Source of the DNA: Henriciella sp. | Lineage (GTDB): Bacteria > Pseudomonadota > Alphaproteobacteria > Caulobacterales > Hyphomonadaceae | Direction of reading: 5' to 3' | NCBI GenBank assembly: GCA_013213785.1 | Contig: JABSPZ010000010.1 | Coordinates: forward strand, 124,001 to 188,000 | DNA length: 64,000 bases | Shown here: piece after piece, positions 7,248 through 13,277 of the stretch | Layout: each line of letters starts with the position of its first letter | Position numbering within the stretch: the stretch's first letter is position 1 | Notes under the pieces: generated by a model | The model's database searches: none | Told to the model about the DNA's origin: nothing | What the model saw: only the letters and a program-made list of their open reading frames with translations | Program-made: the position numbers and the translations under genes

Positions 7248-7772
7248 TTAAGCCGCGTTCTTTTCTTTGAGGCGTTTCGCCTTCTTCACTTTATCAACAG
7301 CGCGTTGACGCTTCAGACGCGACAAGTGATCGATGAACAGTGTGCCTTCGAGGTGATCCATCTCATGTTGGATACAGACAGCGAATAGATCTTTTGCGAC
7401 CTCTTCGACCTCATTGCCATCATAATCGAGACAGCGGACGCGGCACTCCGTCGGGCGCTCCACCTCATCGAAAACGTCCGGCACAGACAAACAGCCTTCT
7501 TCATAAGGCGCGGTGTCTTCGGTGAGCGGCAAGATCTCTGGATTGACGAAGAAACGCGGGTTCTTTTCCTCGTTTTCCTGCAAGTCCATCACGATGACGC
7601 GAAGTGGAACCCCAACCTGAATAGCGGCCAGGCCGATGCCAGGCGCGTCATACATGGTTTCCAACATGTCATCCATGAGCGCGCGAATCTCATCCGTAAC
7701 GCCGCCCTCAACAGGTTTAGACACCTGTTTCAGCCGCGCATCGGGCACTGTGATGATCTCTCGAATAGCCAT
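7248..7772 (-). CDS. def: peptide deformylase
   Basis: Iron-dependent enzyme removing the N-formyl group from nascent proteins. All three family motifs are present: GIGLAA (residues 45-50), EGCLSVP with the metal-binding cysteine (C94), and HEMDH (136-140) with the two metal-binding histidines and catalytic glutamate. I chose the start at MAIREI; an in-frame ATG three codons upstream (7781) is possible. The basic lysine-rich C-terminus ([12 protein letters not shown]) is common in alphaproteobacterial homologues. Confidence 0.97.
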
Positions 7773-7965
7773 GGCCTCCAAGTATGAGCGAGAAGGCGAA
7801 ACGTCAATGTTTGAAGGCGCATAGAGTTTTGTTTGTTTCTAGACCCGCGTAAACTTGATCGCGGCCATCACATTGAGGGGTTTTACCCGCTCAACTTGCA
7901 ACCACCCGGATTCACCCACAAGGTATTCGCCTGATGAGGCTGCGAGACGAGTTGGGGGAAACATC

Positions 7966-9180
7966 ATGAAACGCCGTGCATTTTTGAAAACCGCAGCCGC
8001 TGGTCTGAGCGCTGCGATGCTACCAATTCCCGGCTGCGCTCCGACCCCACTGCGGGCGAAGCGCTATCTGCGCACCAATTGGGGCCAAGACCCGTTCGCC
8101 CTCGGAAGCTATTCCTACATCGCAAAAGGCCTTGATCTGAACGACAACCGCGCGATTGGGCAACCCGTTGGGGATACGCTCTTCTTTGCCGGAGAGGCGA
8201 GCCATCCAAACTATGAGGGCACGGTTCACGCAGCCCACGAAAGCGGGCTGTACGCGGCGGATGCCGTTCTAGAGACGGACAAACAGAATATCGTGATTGT
8301 CGGCGCCGGGATGAGCGGCTTGACGGCGGCCCACAAACTCGCTGCCGCAGGCCGCGACGTGACCGTCTTCGAAGCTCGCGATCGCATCGGGGGGCGCGTC
8401 TGGACATCTGACGCGCTTTCCAGCCCCGTTGATCTCGGCGCGGCCTGGATCCATGGCACGACGGATAATCCGCTCACACGCCTGTCCGACAGGCTGGGCA
8501 TCGAACGGGCCATTGGGGATCCGTCACACATCGTTCGCGACTCAAACGGACGGCGGGTTGAGGACATGCCCGACTGGATCATGGAAGTCGCTATCATTGA
8601 ACAAAATTTTGGCACCGCTCCCGACACGATCAATCACGCCGTATACGAAACCATGGAGGATTATGACGGCGATGATGTCGTTTTCCCGCGAGGATACTCG
8701 CAAATATTTGAGGGGCTTTCGGGCGACTATGATCTTCGCCTGAACTAAATTGTAAGCAAGATTTCTTACTCGGAAACCGGCGCTTCTGTTGAAGTTGACG
8801 ACCAGACTTTTGCCTTGGACGCTGTCATCACAACGCTGCCACTTGGTGTCTTGAAGCAAGGCACGGTTGAGTTCCATCCGCCGCTGCCCGCCCAGAAACG
8901 CCAGTCAATTGATCGCATGGGATATGGCGTCTTAGACAAGCTATACTTGGAGTTCGACCAAGTGTTTTGGGACACGGAAGAAACCTGGATCGGGCTGGTG
9001 GAGACAGGCCTCCCGCGCGGCCAGTTCAACATTTGGCTGAATGTCTTCAAATTCACTGGCGCGCCAATTTTGATGGGCCTGAACGCCGCCGCATCGGCGA
9101 AAACCTTGGCGGACATGGACGATGACGCCGTCGTGGCGCGCGCCATGTCTTTGTTAAACCGCGCCTATCCTCAGGCTTGA
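7966..9180 (+). pseudogene. circularly permuted, interrupted flavin amine oxidase gene
   Basis: The start at 7966 has a strong GGGGGAA ribosome site. A Tat/lipoprotein-like leader (MKRRAFLKTAAAG...GCAP) is followed at residues 33-103 by a block that in monoamine/polyamine oxidases is the C-terminus: NWGQDPFALGSYSY, then FFAGEASHPNYEGTVHAAHESGL. Only after this comes the dinucleotide-binding start NIVIVGAGMSGL (GxGxxG at 113-118) and the FAD motif RIGGRVW. The frame then meets a TAA at 8746-8748 and continues, in the same frame, with TTLPLGVLK and the rest of the substrate domain, stopping at 9180 exactly where the moved C-terminal block would be expected. It is a rearranged gene, probably dead or making fragments. 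Confidence 0.8.
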
Positions 9181-9206: not shown

Positions 9207-10523
9207 CTATGCCTTCTTCTTTTGAATAAGCTCGAGCTGCGCGTTTTGGCCGGCGTCGGCGGTCACCTCGATCCGCTTTGGTTCCGGCATGGTTTTATCC
9301 GGCGGCGCGATCGAGAGTTCTTCAAATTTGCGCATGCTTGGCAGGACGCGTTTGTCGAACGAGGCATTCATTTTGTTGTAATTGTCGACAGCGCCATTCA
9401 GCGACTTACCCAGCTTTTCAATATGCCCCGCCATGGTCGCAATGCGTTCATAGAGCTGCTGGCCGAGCTGCGCCGCCTCACGGGCATTCTGGGTCATCTT
9501 CTCCTGGCGCCAGACATAGGCAACGGTTTTGGCGAGCCCGATCAAGGTCGAAGGCGTGGTGACGATGACATTCTTTGAATAGGCGCGCTCCAGCAATTCT
9601 GGCGCATGTTCGAGCGCGGCGGCGAAGAAGTTTTCGCCCGGAATGAACATCGCGACGAAGTCTACGCGCTCATCCAAGTTCGCCTGGTAGCGCTTTGAGG
9701 CGAGCGTATCGACATGGCGCTGAACATTGGCGGCATGAGATTTCAGGTGAACGCTGCGCTGCGTCGGGTCTTCTGCAGAGGCGGCCGCCATATAGGCTTC
9801 CAGAGAGACTTTGGAATCGACCACGATTTGTCGCCCGCCGGGTAGATGGATCACCGCATCTGGACGCTGGCGTCCTTCTTCGGTCTGGTCGTTGACCTGT
9901 TCATTGAAATCGCAATGCCCAGAGAGGCCCGCCTGTTCCATCACATTGCGGAGCGTCATCTCGCCCCAACGCCCGCCGCCTTTAGGCGCGGTGAGCGCAT
10001 TGACCAGTTTGCCCGTCTCTGCGGTGTTGCGGTGCAAGCTTTCACCAATGGCTTTGACTTGCTCTTGGATCGCGGATTTGTCTTCGGCGCGGACTTTTTC
10101 GATATCAGCGACACGCTTTTTGAACTCGGTGAAGTTCTCGCCAATGGGTTTCATCAGCTCGTTCAGTTCGCCCTTCGCACCCTCGCGGTGCTTCTTGAAC
10201 GTCTCGTCCGCCATCGCGATGAAGTGTTGCTGGGTTTGCTGCATCACGCCGCGCGCGATTTCCCCAAACGCTTCTTTCTGCTTCGCGGTTTGCCCGCGCA
10301 GTTCTGCGAGTTGGAGCTTGCTTTCATCCGCCATGGCGCGCTGAGTCTTCAGCTCTTGCTGAGCGTGCGAGAGATCTGCCTCGGCTTCCTCTAGCGTCGT
10401 GCGCTCTTGGATCAGAAGCTCACGAAACTTGTAGCACGCGGCGCCAAGCCCCAAGGCGACCACAATCGCGATCAAGTGAATGAGGTCGAGCCCCGTTTCG
10501 CCAATTTGAATGATGGGTTCCAT
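9207..10523 (-). CDS. rmuC: DNA recombination protein RmuC
   Basis: RmuC-family protein, linked genetically to limiting inversions at short inverted repeats; a nuclease-like domain is predicted for the family. The 438-aa product has an N-terminal membrane anchor (about residues 12-32), a long coiled coil rich in E, Q and R (about 35-170), and a C-terminal core with GGRWGEMTLRNVMEQAG and DAVIHLPGGRQIVVDSK, both hallmark elements. Length and layout match the family. Confidence 0.93.
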   Translation of the reverse strand: MEPIIQIGETGLDLIHLIAIVVALGLGAACYKFRELLIQERTTLEEAEADLSHAQQELKTQRAMADESKLQLAELRGQTAKQKEAFGEIARGVMQQTQQHFIAMADETFKKHREGAKGELNELMKPIGENFTEFKKRVADIEKVRAEDKSAIQEQVKAIGESLHRNTAETGKLVNALTAPKGGGRWGEMTLRNVMEQAGLSGHCDFNEQVNDQTEEGRQRPDAVIHLPGGRQIVVDSKVSLEAYMAAASAEDPTQRSVHLKSHAANVQRHVDTLASKRYQANLDERVDFVAMFIPGENFFAAALEHAPELLERAYSKNVIVTTPSTLIGLAKTVAYVWRQEKMTQNAREAAQLGQQLYERIATMAGHIEKLGKSLNGAVDNYNKMNASFDKRVLPSMRKFEELSIAPPDKTMPEPKRIEVTADAGQNAQLELIQKKKA

Positions 10524-12422: not shown

Positions 12423-13277
12423 ATGGCTCGATATGACGTATTTATGGTGAACGCCCTTGCCGACCGCGAGAAGGCCGATCTGATCGTGCGACGTCTACGC
12501 GCCCTGAAATTCAAAGTTCGCTATGACAAGAAACGCGAGCACACGACCCCGGCACCAAAGGATTATCGCGACGCCGACAATTCCCAAACCGTCCTAGTCG
12601 TCTGGTCCAAAGATTCCTGCGACACGAGCCAAAGCGATAGCGATTGGGTCCATGCCATTGCCCATCATGCGCGCTCCAAGGATGGCGTGCTCTTGCAAGT
12701 TGGCCTCGACAAAACCGTGCCAGATGAGCCGTTCAGTGAGGATAAGCGCTACGCCTTGTCAGGCATGGGACCGCGCAAGCTGGTCAATGGCTATTATGAC
12801 CTGGTCGACGAACTTGGTCGCCGCGATGGACGCAAAGACCTACGCGAGTGGATCGATCTGAAAGCCAGCGATAAGGCGGGCAAGGAGGCATGGAAAGAAA
12901 ACCATCCGACCGATCCTCTATCGCAAACACCGAAACCAAAGACCGCTGCAAAAGCGCCCGCTGCGGCTGTAGCCGCCTCAACCACGACAGGGACGCGCCC
13001 AGCCGCACCGCCTCTGGAAATGAGCCCACCAACGGTTTCAAAACAAACAGAGGATGTGCTCGGCCCGTTCATGCTCGCCGCTGTCGGGGTCATCATTGTC
13101 GGCATGTTGATTATGAGCGCTGCCATGCGGACGAGCGCTGGATTGCCTGCCATTGCAGGCGCGGGCGGCACCGCCTTAGTGGCGCAGTGTCCGGAAGGGC
13201 AGATCCCGGCCTATTTGTTAGAAGAAGAAGCGCCGCGCGTGCTCGAGCCAGGCCCGATCATCGACGATACGGAATAA
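12423..13277 (+). CDS. TIR-like domain protein with C-terminal membrane anchor
   Basis: The start at 12423 has a clear GGAGGA ribosome site; an in-frame upstream start at 12225 would overlap the divergent ychF gene. Residues 3-105 look like a bacterial TIR domain: YDVFMVNALADREKADLIVRR, then FKVRYD, then TVLVVWSKDS, then DWVHAIAHHA and VLLQVGLD. A proline/alanine-rich linker (165-205), one membrane helix (about 215-235) and a short acidic tail follow. Where active bacterial TIR domains usually show W-V-x-A-E, this protein has isoleucine (I79), so NADase activity is doubtful. It converges on pth with a 2-bp gap. Role unknown. Confidence 0.7.
   Translation: MARYDVFMVNALADREKADLIVRRLRALKFKVRYDKKREHTTPAPKDYRDADNSQTVLVVWSKDSCDTSQSDSDWVHAIAHHARSKDGVLLQVGLDKTVPDEPFSEDKRYALSGMGPRKLVNGYYDLVDELGRRDGRKDLREWIDLKASDKAGKEAWKENHPTDPLSQTPKPKTAAKAPAAAVAASTTTGTRPAAPPLEMSPPTVSKQTEDVLGPFMLAAVGVIIVGMLIMSAAMRTSAGLPAIAGAGGTALVAQCPEGQIPAYLLEEEAPRVLEPGPIIDDTE

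Follow-up and report, generated by a model that had tools for sequence, protein, structure and literature searches.

Gene content and domain order

The window, a 64,000-nucleotide stretch of a Henriciella genome, carries at positions 7966-9180 a gene of the flavin amine oxidase family, flanked by two genes which, named from their sequence, we take to be def and rmuC (Table 1). The translation starts with MKRRAFLK..., continues through YLRTNWGQDPFALGSYSY...FFAGEASHPNYEGTVHAAHESGLYAADAVLETDK into QNIVIVGAGMSGL... and ends with RAYPQA, followed by TGA. In a piecewise scan along the window, the Pfam profile Amino_oxidase (PF01593, 443 positions) was matched in the order 374-443 (E value of 3.3e-13), 1-76 (6.1e-23) and 225-366 (1.1e-22). 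The initial annotation had placed the former C-terminal block between the leader and the GxGxxG start and had ended the gene with RAYPQA, and both descriptions were confirmed. Its reading of 7966-9180 as a single open frame was not, since an in-frame TAA at codon 261 had been overlooked. This stop splits the gene, and the frame ahead of it comprises 260 codons from the ATG at 7966 or 297 codons from an upstream TTG at 7855. Its further statement that all parts are present needs qualifying: each block occurs once, and the middle (about profile positions 77-188) has the reduced length also found in the permuted relatives.

Table 1. Features of the flavin amine oxidase locus in the window
Feature	Positions	Strand	Basis or remark
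Peptide deformylase gene def, left flank	7248..7781	-	Match in 29/29 genus genomes, own included
GGGGGA, ribosome-binding-like	7954-7959		5' of leader
Leader with twin arginine (Tat-type signal peptide), MKRRAFLK...	7966..8064	+	Sequence; both arginines invariant in relatives
Displaced C-terminal block (W..DP..GSYSY ... FFAGEA ... TVHAA)	8065..8280	+	PF01593 374-443, match 8062-8280
N-terminal FAD-binding block, GAGMSG from 8302, EARDRIGGRVW	8281..8560	+	PF01593 1-76
Middle block, interrupted by TAA	8653..9171	+	PF01593 about 189-366
In-frame TAA, codon 261	8746-8748	+	Translation (one assembly)
Lysine invariant across the permuted branch	8938-8940	+	Within middle block
TGA, about where permuted relatives end	9178..9180	+	Sequence; ends of relatives
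rmuC-like gene, right flank	9207..10523	-	Beside def in 24/28 relatives

With X at the position of the stop, the window protein scored 222.6 bits against PF01593 (gathering cut-off, 19.8), compared with 241.3 bits for the complete relative L010 described below. It retains the GxGxxG FAD motif and the GE motif of the C-terminal block (G113, G115, G118, G76, and E77). The canonical linear order of N-terminal, middle and C-terminal blocks (N-M-C) was absent: both copies in this genome (G000) and 19 other proteins have the order C-N-M. The two parts are homologous to those of the canonical protein, swapped and each present once, as expected of a circular permutation. Because of this noncanonical order, the gene was classed as a permuted variant and not as an ordinary PF01593 member. 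Chance was excluded as the cause of the order, which recurs in 19 other genomes.

Permuted relatives and their distribution

The 19 other genomes with the permuted order are those of Nitratireductor sp. XY-223, 14 members of an alphaproteobacterial family (f27) and four members of another alphaproteobacterial family (f20). Eighteen of the 19 genes are complete, and the remaining one (L109, from f27) is cut by a contig end. The Nitratireductor gene (L010) has 407 codons and the same order (PF01593 376-440, 1-71, and 193-366) and lies on a contig of 1,058,888 bases, whose title gives a cov of 69.650639. Another permuted copy, that of G954, lies on a contig of 4,595,413 bases. With the L010 protein as the query, near full-length matches were obtained in 14 of 394 f27 genomes (393 genera), the 14 genomes representing 14 genera, and in 4 of 17 f20 genomes. 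A second search of the 17 f20 genomes added two weak matches, both in canonical order.

The phylum-wide draw of 349 genomes (E ≤ 1e-40, at most five candidates scored per genome) gave only three matches, all within the same class: the window's own and two from f27. The search of the class (385 genomes) yielded four genomes, namely, that of the window, G207, G384 and G183, the last with a canonical gene, and a search with the N-M part (372 genomes) yielded seven, among which G164, G244, G398 and G183 are canonical. Few candidates per genome were scored in the wide searches, and their counts may be lower bounds. No match at E ≤ 1e-20 was found among 60 relatives from the genus, family and order of the window's genome. 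The plasmid search (tblastn, E ≤ 1e-20) returned four Synechocystis records with 30% identity over query residues 134-406, none of which covers 80% of the query, and no relative was found in the viral contigs searched.

All three blocks were found by BLAST in 50 proteins from the retrieved loci, a count that leaves out loci duplicating others and the 29 def loci; 19 of them have the order C-N-M and 31 the order N-M-C. An exact peptide pattern search kept 80 loci, of which 29 contained all three blocks, L010 in permuted and 28 in canonical order. In the gene neighborhoods (18 regions plus that of the window), no clear functional or substrate clue was detected. Among the 25 widest clusters listed, an ABC-type ATPase occurred in five neighborhoods and a dehydrogenase-like gene in three; the clusters also included the gene itself, its antisense frame and several pairs (L167/L168 and L159/L167).

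Breakpoint, junction, and middle region

In the permuted proteins, the leader comes first, and the opening of the chain falls within the loop ahead of an RTNW/ITRW-type strand (RTxW type in canonical proteins), the strand being a feature of the structural model. Several proteins retain part of a PxPxG-like linker at the opened loop, and the permuted chains stop shortly past the helix that precedes it. The breakpoint falls within a few residues across the complete permuted members. Members of the branch begin with the leader, followed by the C-terminal FAD/active-site block, then the N-terminal Rossmann block and finally the middle block. At the new junction, the canonical terminal helix (residues 87-103 in the model) appears to be joined to the first beta strand (modeled at 108-112) by about four residues, and no trace of a second or leftover leader was found there.

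Measured from one landmark to another, the middle region spans 77 to 82 residues in 21 permuted rows versus 120 to 131 residues in 21 of 26 canonical rows. The other five canonical rows, all mycobacterial, read 95 residues; since the N-M lengths of the mycobacterial proteins hardly differ, the landmark pattern probably matched an earlier site in these rows. The N-M length, a measure that takes in a linker of a few residues, was 295 to 302 residues in complete permuted rows versus 340 to 378 residues in 29 canonical rows. The permuted middle is about 40 to 45 residues shorter than that of canonical relatives, and alignment A1 shows the gap near residues 200-222 of P0002. The shortened region is presumably part of the substrate domain.

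Comparison with known structures

In a phmmer comparison of L010 with LSD1 (4bay_A), residues 106-181 aligned to 108-183, residues 234-404 to 393-569 and residues 36-107 to 582-665. At the level of sequence comparison, such a three-stretch pattern is a textbook sign of circular permutation. A model of L010 was built from 30 rows, comprising its own sequence, two pieces from the window and fragments of canonical relatives; it had a middling pLDDT of 72.3 and a pTM of 0.77. The structural aligner placed model residues 105-407 on LSD1 residues 277-739 (Z up to 16.9), residues 102-407 on LSD2 residues 378-744 (Z = 17.0) and residues 106-407 on murine polyamine oxidase residues 5-407 (Z = 15.9). 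The best Foldseek match was also LSD2 (E value of 2.8e-17, TM-score of 0.53 by query). The N-M part (about 102-407) thus aligns to LSD1 and the polyamine oxidases, and the displaced block falls outside the aligned range, as expected of a sequential aligner.

The amine oxidase domains of LSD1/KDM1A and LSD2/KDM1B (PDB 2dw4, 4fwe, and others) gave the best matches in both sequence and structure. The Rossmann FAD block, the lysine of the middle block and the W..DP..GSYSY...AGE block align, but LSD1 has the canonical order N-M-C. In the bacterial permuted branch, a leader is present and the middle is short. The tower and SWIRM parts of the LSD enzymes are absent from this branch. Plant and animal polyamine/spermine oxidases (PDB 1b37, 5lae, and 7oxl), whose chains we take to be in canonical order, share the fold over the N and M blocks and match in sequence; the aligned range ends short of their C-terminal part. 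Canonical bacterial relatives, including L121 of the alphaproteobacterium G398, L027 of Spirulina and mycobacterial L011-L034, belong to the same superfamily but have the C block at the C terminus and a longer middle. The canonical proteins L121, L027 and L123 likewise start with an RR-containing leader.

Conserved positions and predicted function

Fifty-nine columns are invariant in the 18 complete permuted members, including R3, R4, W39, Y49, G76, E77, G113, G115, G118 and K328. The twin arginine R3 R4 lies in the N-terminal leader of 18/18 complete relatives. K328, also invariant in 18/18, aligns with the lysine in the LSD1 stretch "gnlnk", which we take to be K661, the conserved lysine near the FAD; W39, Y49 and K328 presumably correspond to active-site residues of LSD1. 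Because the complete enzymes retain W39, Y49 and K328 as well as the positions that bind FAD, these proteins most likely fold as normal noncovalent FAD amine oxidases. They would most likely be exported in the folded state by the Tat system and would oxidize an amine outside the cytoplasm, yielding H2O2. These sequence features predict a Tat-exported, noncovalent FAD amine oxidase resembling LSD1 and the polyamine oxidases.

In a leave-one-out comparison of the complete members, each differed at 0 to 7 of the columns that are invariant in the remainder. The window copy keeps 58 of the 59 invariant columns, and the truncated L109 departs from 1 of 55. The second copy in the window's genome, on contig C3, departs from none of the 39 invariant and none of the 14 nearly invariant columns that it covers. 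These few departures from invariant columns make both broken copies look like genes that were constrained until recently. At 7 of the 24 nearly invariant columns, however, the window copy differs, and therefore its divergence or decay may predate the stop codon.

Second copy, locus, and decay

The genome G000 (3.36 Mb, 50 contigs) contains a second match across the same junction, on C3. This copy is 55% identical to the window copy over the 222-residue query and also has the order C-N-M. It has a TGA within the leader (L002:1399-1401) and a frameshift near L002:2270-2286, after which the other frame runs to ...LKLEYE and a stop. Both copies in the genome are broken, by different lesions. Directly after the second pseudogene, at L002:2611-2830 (G000:C3), inspection by eye revealed what appears to be the C-terminal end of a TonB-dependent receptor, the rest of which is absent.

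The def gene was matched in 28/28 other species of the genus, and rmuC was also within the flank in 24 of them. In these 24 loci, the gap between def and rmuC, extrapolated from alignment ends, was 37 to 173 bases in 18 cases and 297 to 1,324 bases in six. Three of the remaining four loci are cut by contig ends, and in the fourth (L129) other reading frames are present. At E ≤ 1e-5, the permuted gene had no match in any of the 28 def loci. Since no match occurs in 28 species, and rmuC and def adjoin without the gene in 24, the window gene was probably acquired and then lost its function. The GC content of the gene (0.576) is similar to that of the flanks. The patchy distribution suggests acquisition by transfer. 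Two diverged copies reached this genome, probably by this route, and both have since decayed: a single stop codon interrupts the window copy, and the C3 copy has the leader stop and the frameshift.

Different genes seem to occupy the def-rmuC gap in G028, G007 and G002: a 228-codon frame in G028, a frame in G007 that is presumably cysteine-synthase-like and frames in G002 that we take to be TetR-like and Rieske-like. Given these different occupants, the gap is possibly a small hot spot for insertions. In L131 and L133, the gap contains stretches that by eye resemble short dispersed repeats with self-complementary parts.

Origin of the permutation

Two maximum likelihood trees were built. One comprised 19 permuted and 16 canonical rows, without L099 and L117, which did not pass a motif filter; the other included both (21 permuted and 14 canonical rows). 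The C3 row represented only the part ahead of the frameshift. In the 19-plus-16-row tree, canonical rows fell among the permuted rows and well-supported branches force two changes of order. In the 21-plus-14-row tree, the canonical rows were nested among the permuted rows (support, 94/92) and the fewest changes were again two, although here the well-supported branches do not force them. Among 200 bootstrap trees, those with one change made up 0% in the 19-plus-16-row set and 2% in the 21-plus-14-row set. The best tree of the latter set with the permuted rows united was 3.6 log units worse and was not rejected (p-AU = 0.31). The trees did not include L093 (G183, minus strand); this relative has the canonical order and a C block interrupted by a stop codon, and it is perhaps another decaying copy.

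We favor a single origin of the permutation, as a matter of judgment, because the breakpoint and the shortening are the same. A repeated origin at the same loop, for example, in an f27-type and an f20-type clade, or a reversion in one canonical lineage, agrees with the position of the canonical rows in both trees (two forced changes in one; nesting at 94/92 with a minimum of two in the other). This scenario appears quite unlikely, as the AU test on the fuller set did not reject a single permuted clade, the complete members share the shortening and a breakpoint within a few residues and the trees contain long branches (L122 and L123) and remote outgroups.

The literature names two main models of permutation, one by duplication and one by fission with fusion (PMC3320104); under the former, intermediates with two C blocks are expected. 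Each of the 50 proteins with all blocks has exactly one C block, so that no such intermediate was present in this sample, which was not drawn to find them. An internal block swap could have preserved the leader ahead of the moved block, or the leader could have been regained.

That the gene is a circularly permuted flavin amine oxidase, as the initial annotation proposed, is borne out by the profile order, the three-stretch match to LSD1 and the same order elsewhere. The mechanism proposed there, a fresh tandem duplication of a canonical gene in this strain followed by partial deletion, accounts for the order and the end points in the window. It is nevertheless very unlikely: the order, the breakpoint and the shortening are shared with 19 genomes, among them other genera, and with the second copy; a search of this locus in the 28 congeneric species, with rmuC and def adjoining in 24, gave no copy of either order; and the C-to-N junction is short and without a leftover leader. 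An intact or tandem canonical gene collapsed or misjoined during assembly, the other possibility raised initially, is conceivable in a genome of 50 contigs. The junction, however, recurs in independent assemblies, where complete permuted genes lie on contigs of 1.06 Mb (L010, coverage of 69.65) and 4.6 Mb (G954), as well as in the C3 copy, making such an artifact extremely improbable.

A functional window gene, with the TAA being a sequencing error or read through, would fit the intact appearance of the remainder (start, twin arginine, 58 of the 59 invariant columns, and end). Yet the stop is present in the assembled sequence, and the next in-frame starts (TTG 8815, TTG 8851, and ATG 8917) have no ribosome-binding site evident by eye. 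A restart at these codons would omit two blocks, and the C3 copy is likewise disrupted. Continued function is thus improbable. Very probably, the window gene belongs to an old branch of LSD1/polyamine oxidase-like flavin amine oxidases that is circularly permuted by nature, and it was inactivated recently. The best reading of the data is that an old natural circular permutation founded this branch of presumably Tat-exported flavoenzymes. A more far-reaching version, in which a permutation of the LSD1/polyamine oxidase-like fold, possibly occurring twice at the same loop, founded a scattered exported alphaproteobacterial branch, with the trimmed middle giving a new substrate range and the whole constituting an undescribed case, seems rather unlikely.

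Significance

The flavin amine oxidase family holds drug targets and biocatalysts. The case concerns a circular permutation within a large two-domain flavoenzyme family that has been kept in many genera with its active-site positions intact. Among the titles obtained in searches of the open-licence PMC literature, none concerned a permuted flavin amine oxidase. The nearest described case found is that of the FMN-bind1 proteins, circularly permuted bacterial flavoproteins described from models (PMC11334425). These proteins differ from the permuted amine oxidases in having another fold and covalent FMN, and the term "amine oxidase" does not appear in the text of that paper.

If the interpretation as an old permuted branch is true, it would reveal where the amine oxidase fold tolerates opening and joining and would supply a naturally occurring template for permuted oxidases. 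With complete, decayed and canonical relatives available for direct comparison, the ways in which permutations arise could also be tested. Domain annotation that is blind to order hides such permuted cases.

Elsewhere in the window, the plus-strand region 12426-13277 showed a weak match to TIR_2 (E value of 2e-5; 25.5 bits, below the cut-off of 28). Its protein has a C-terminal hydrophobic stretch by eye and is possibly a TIR-domain membrane protein.
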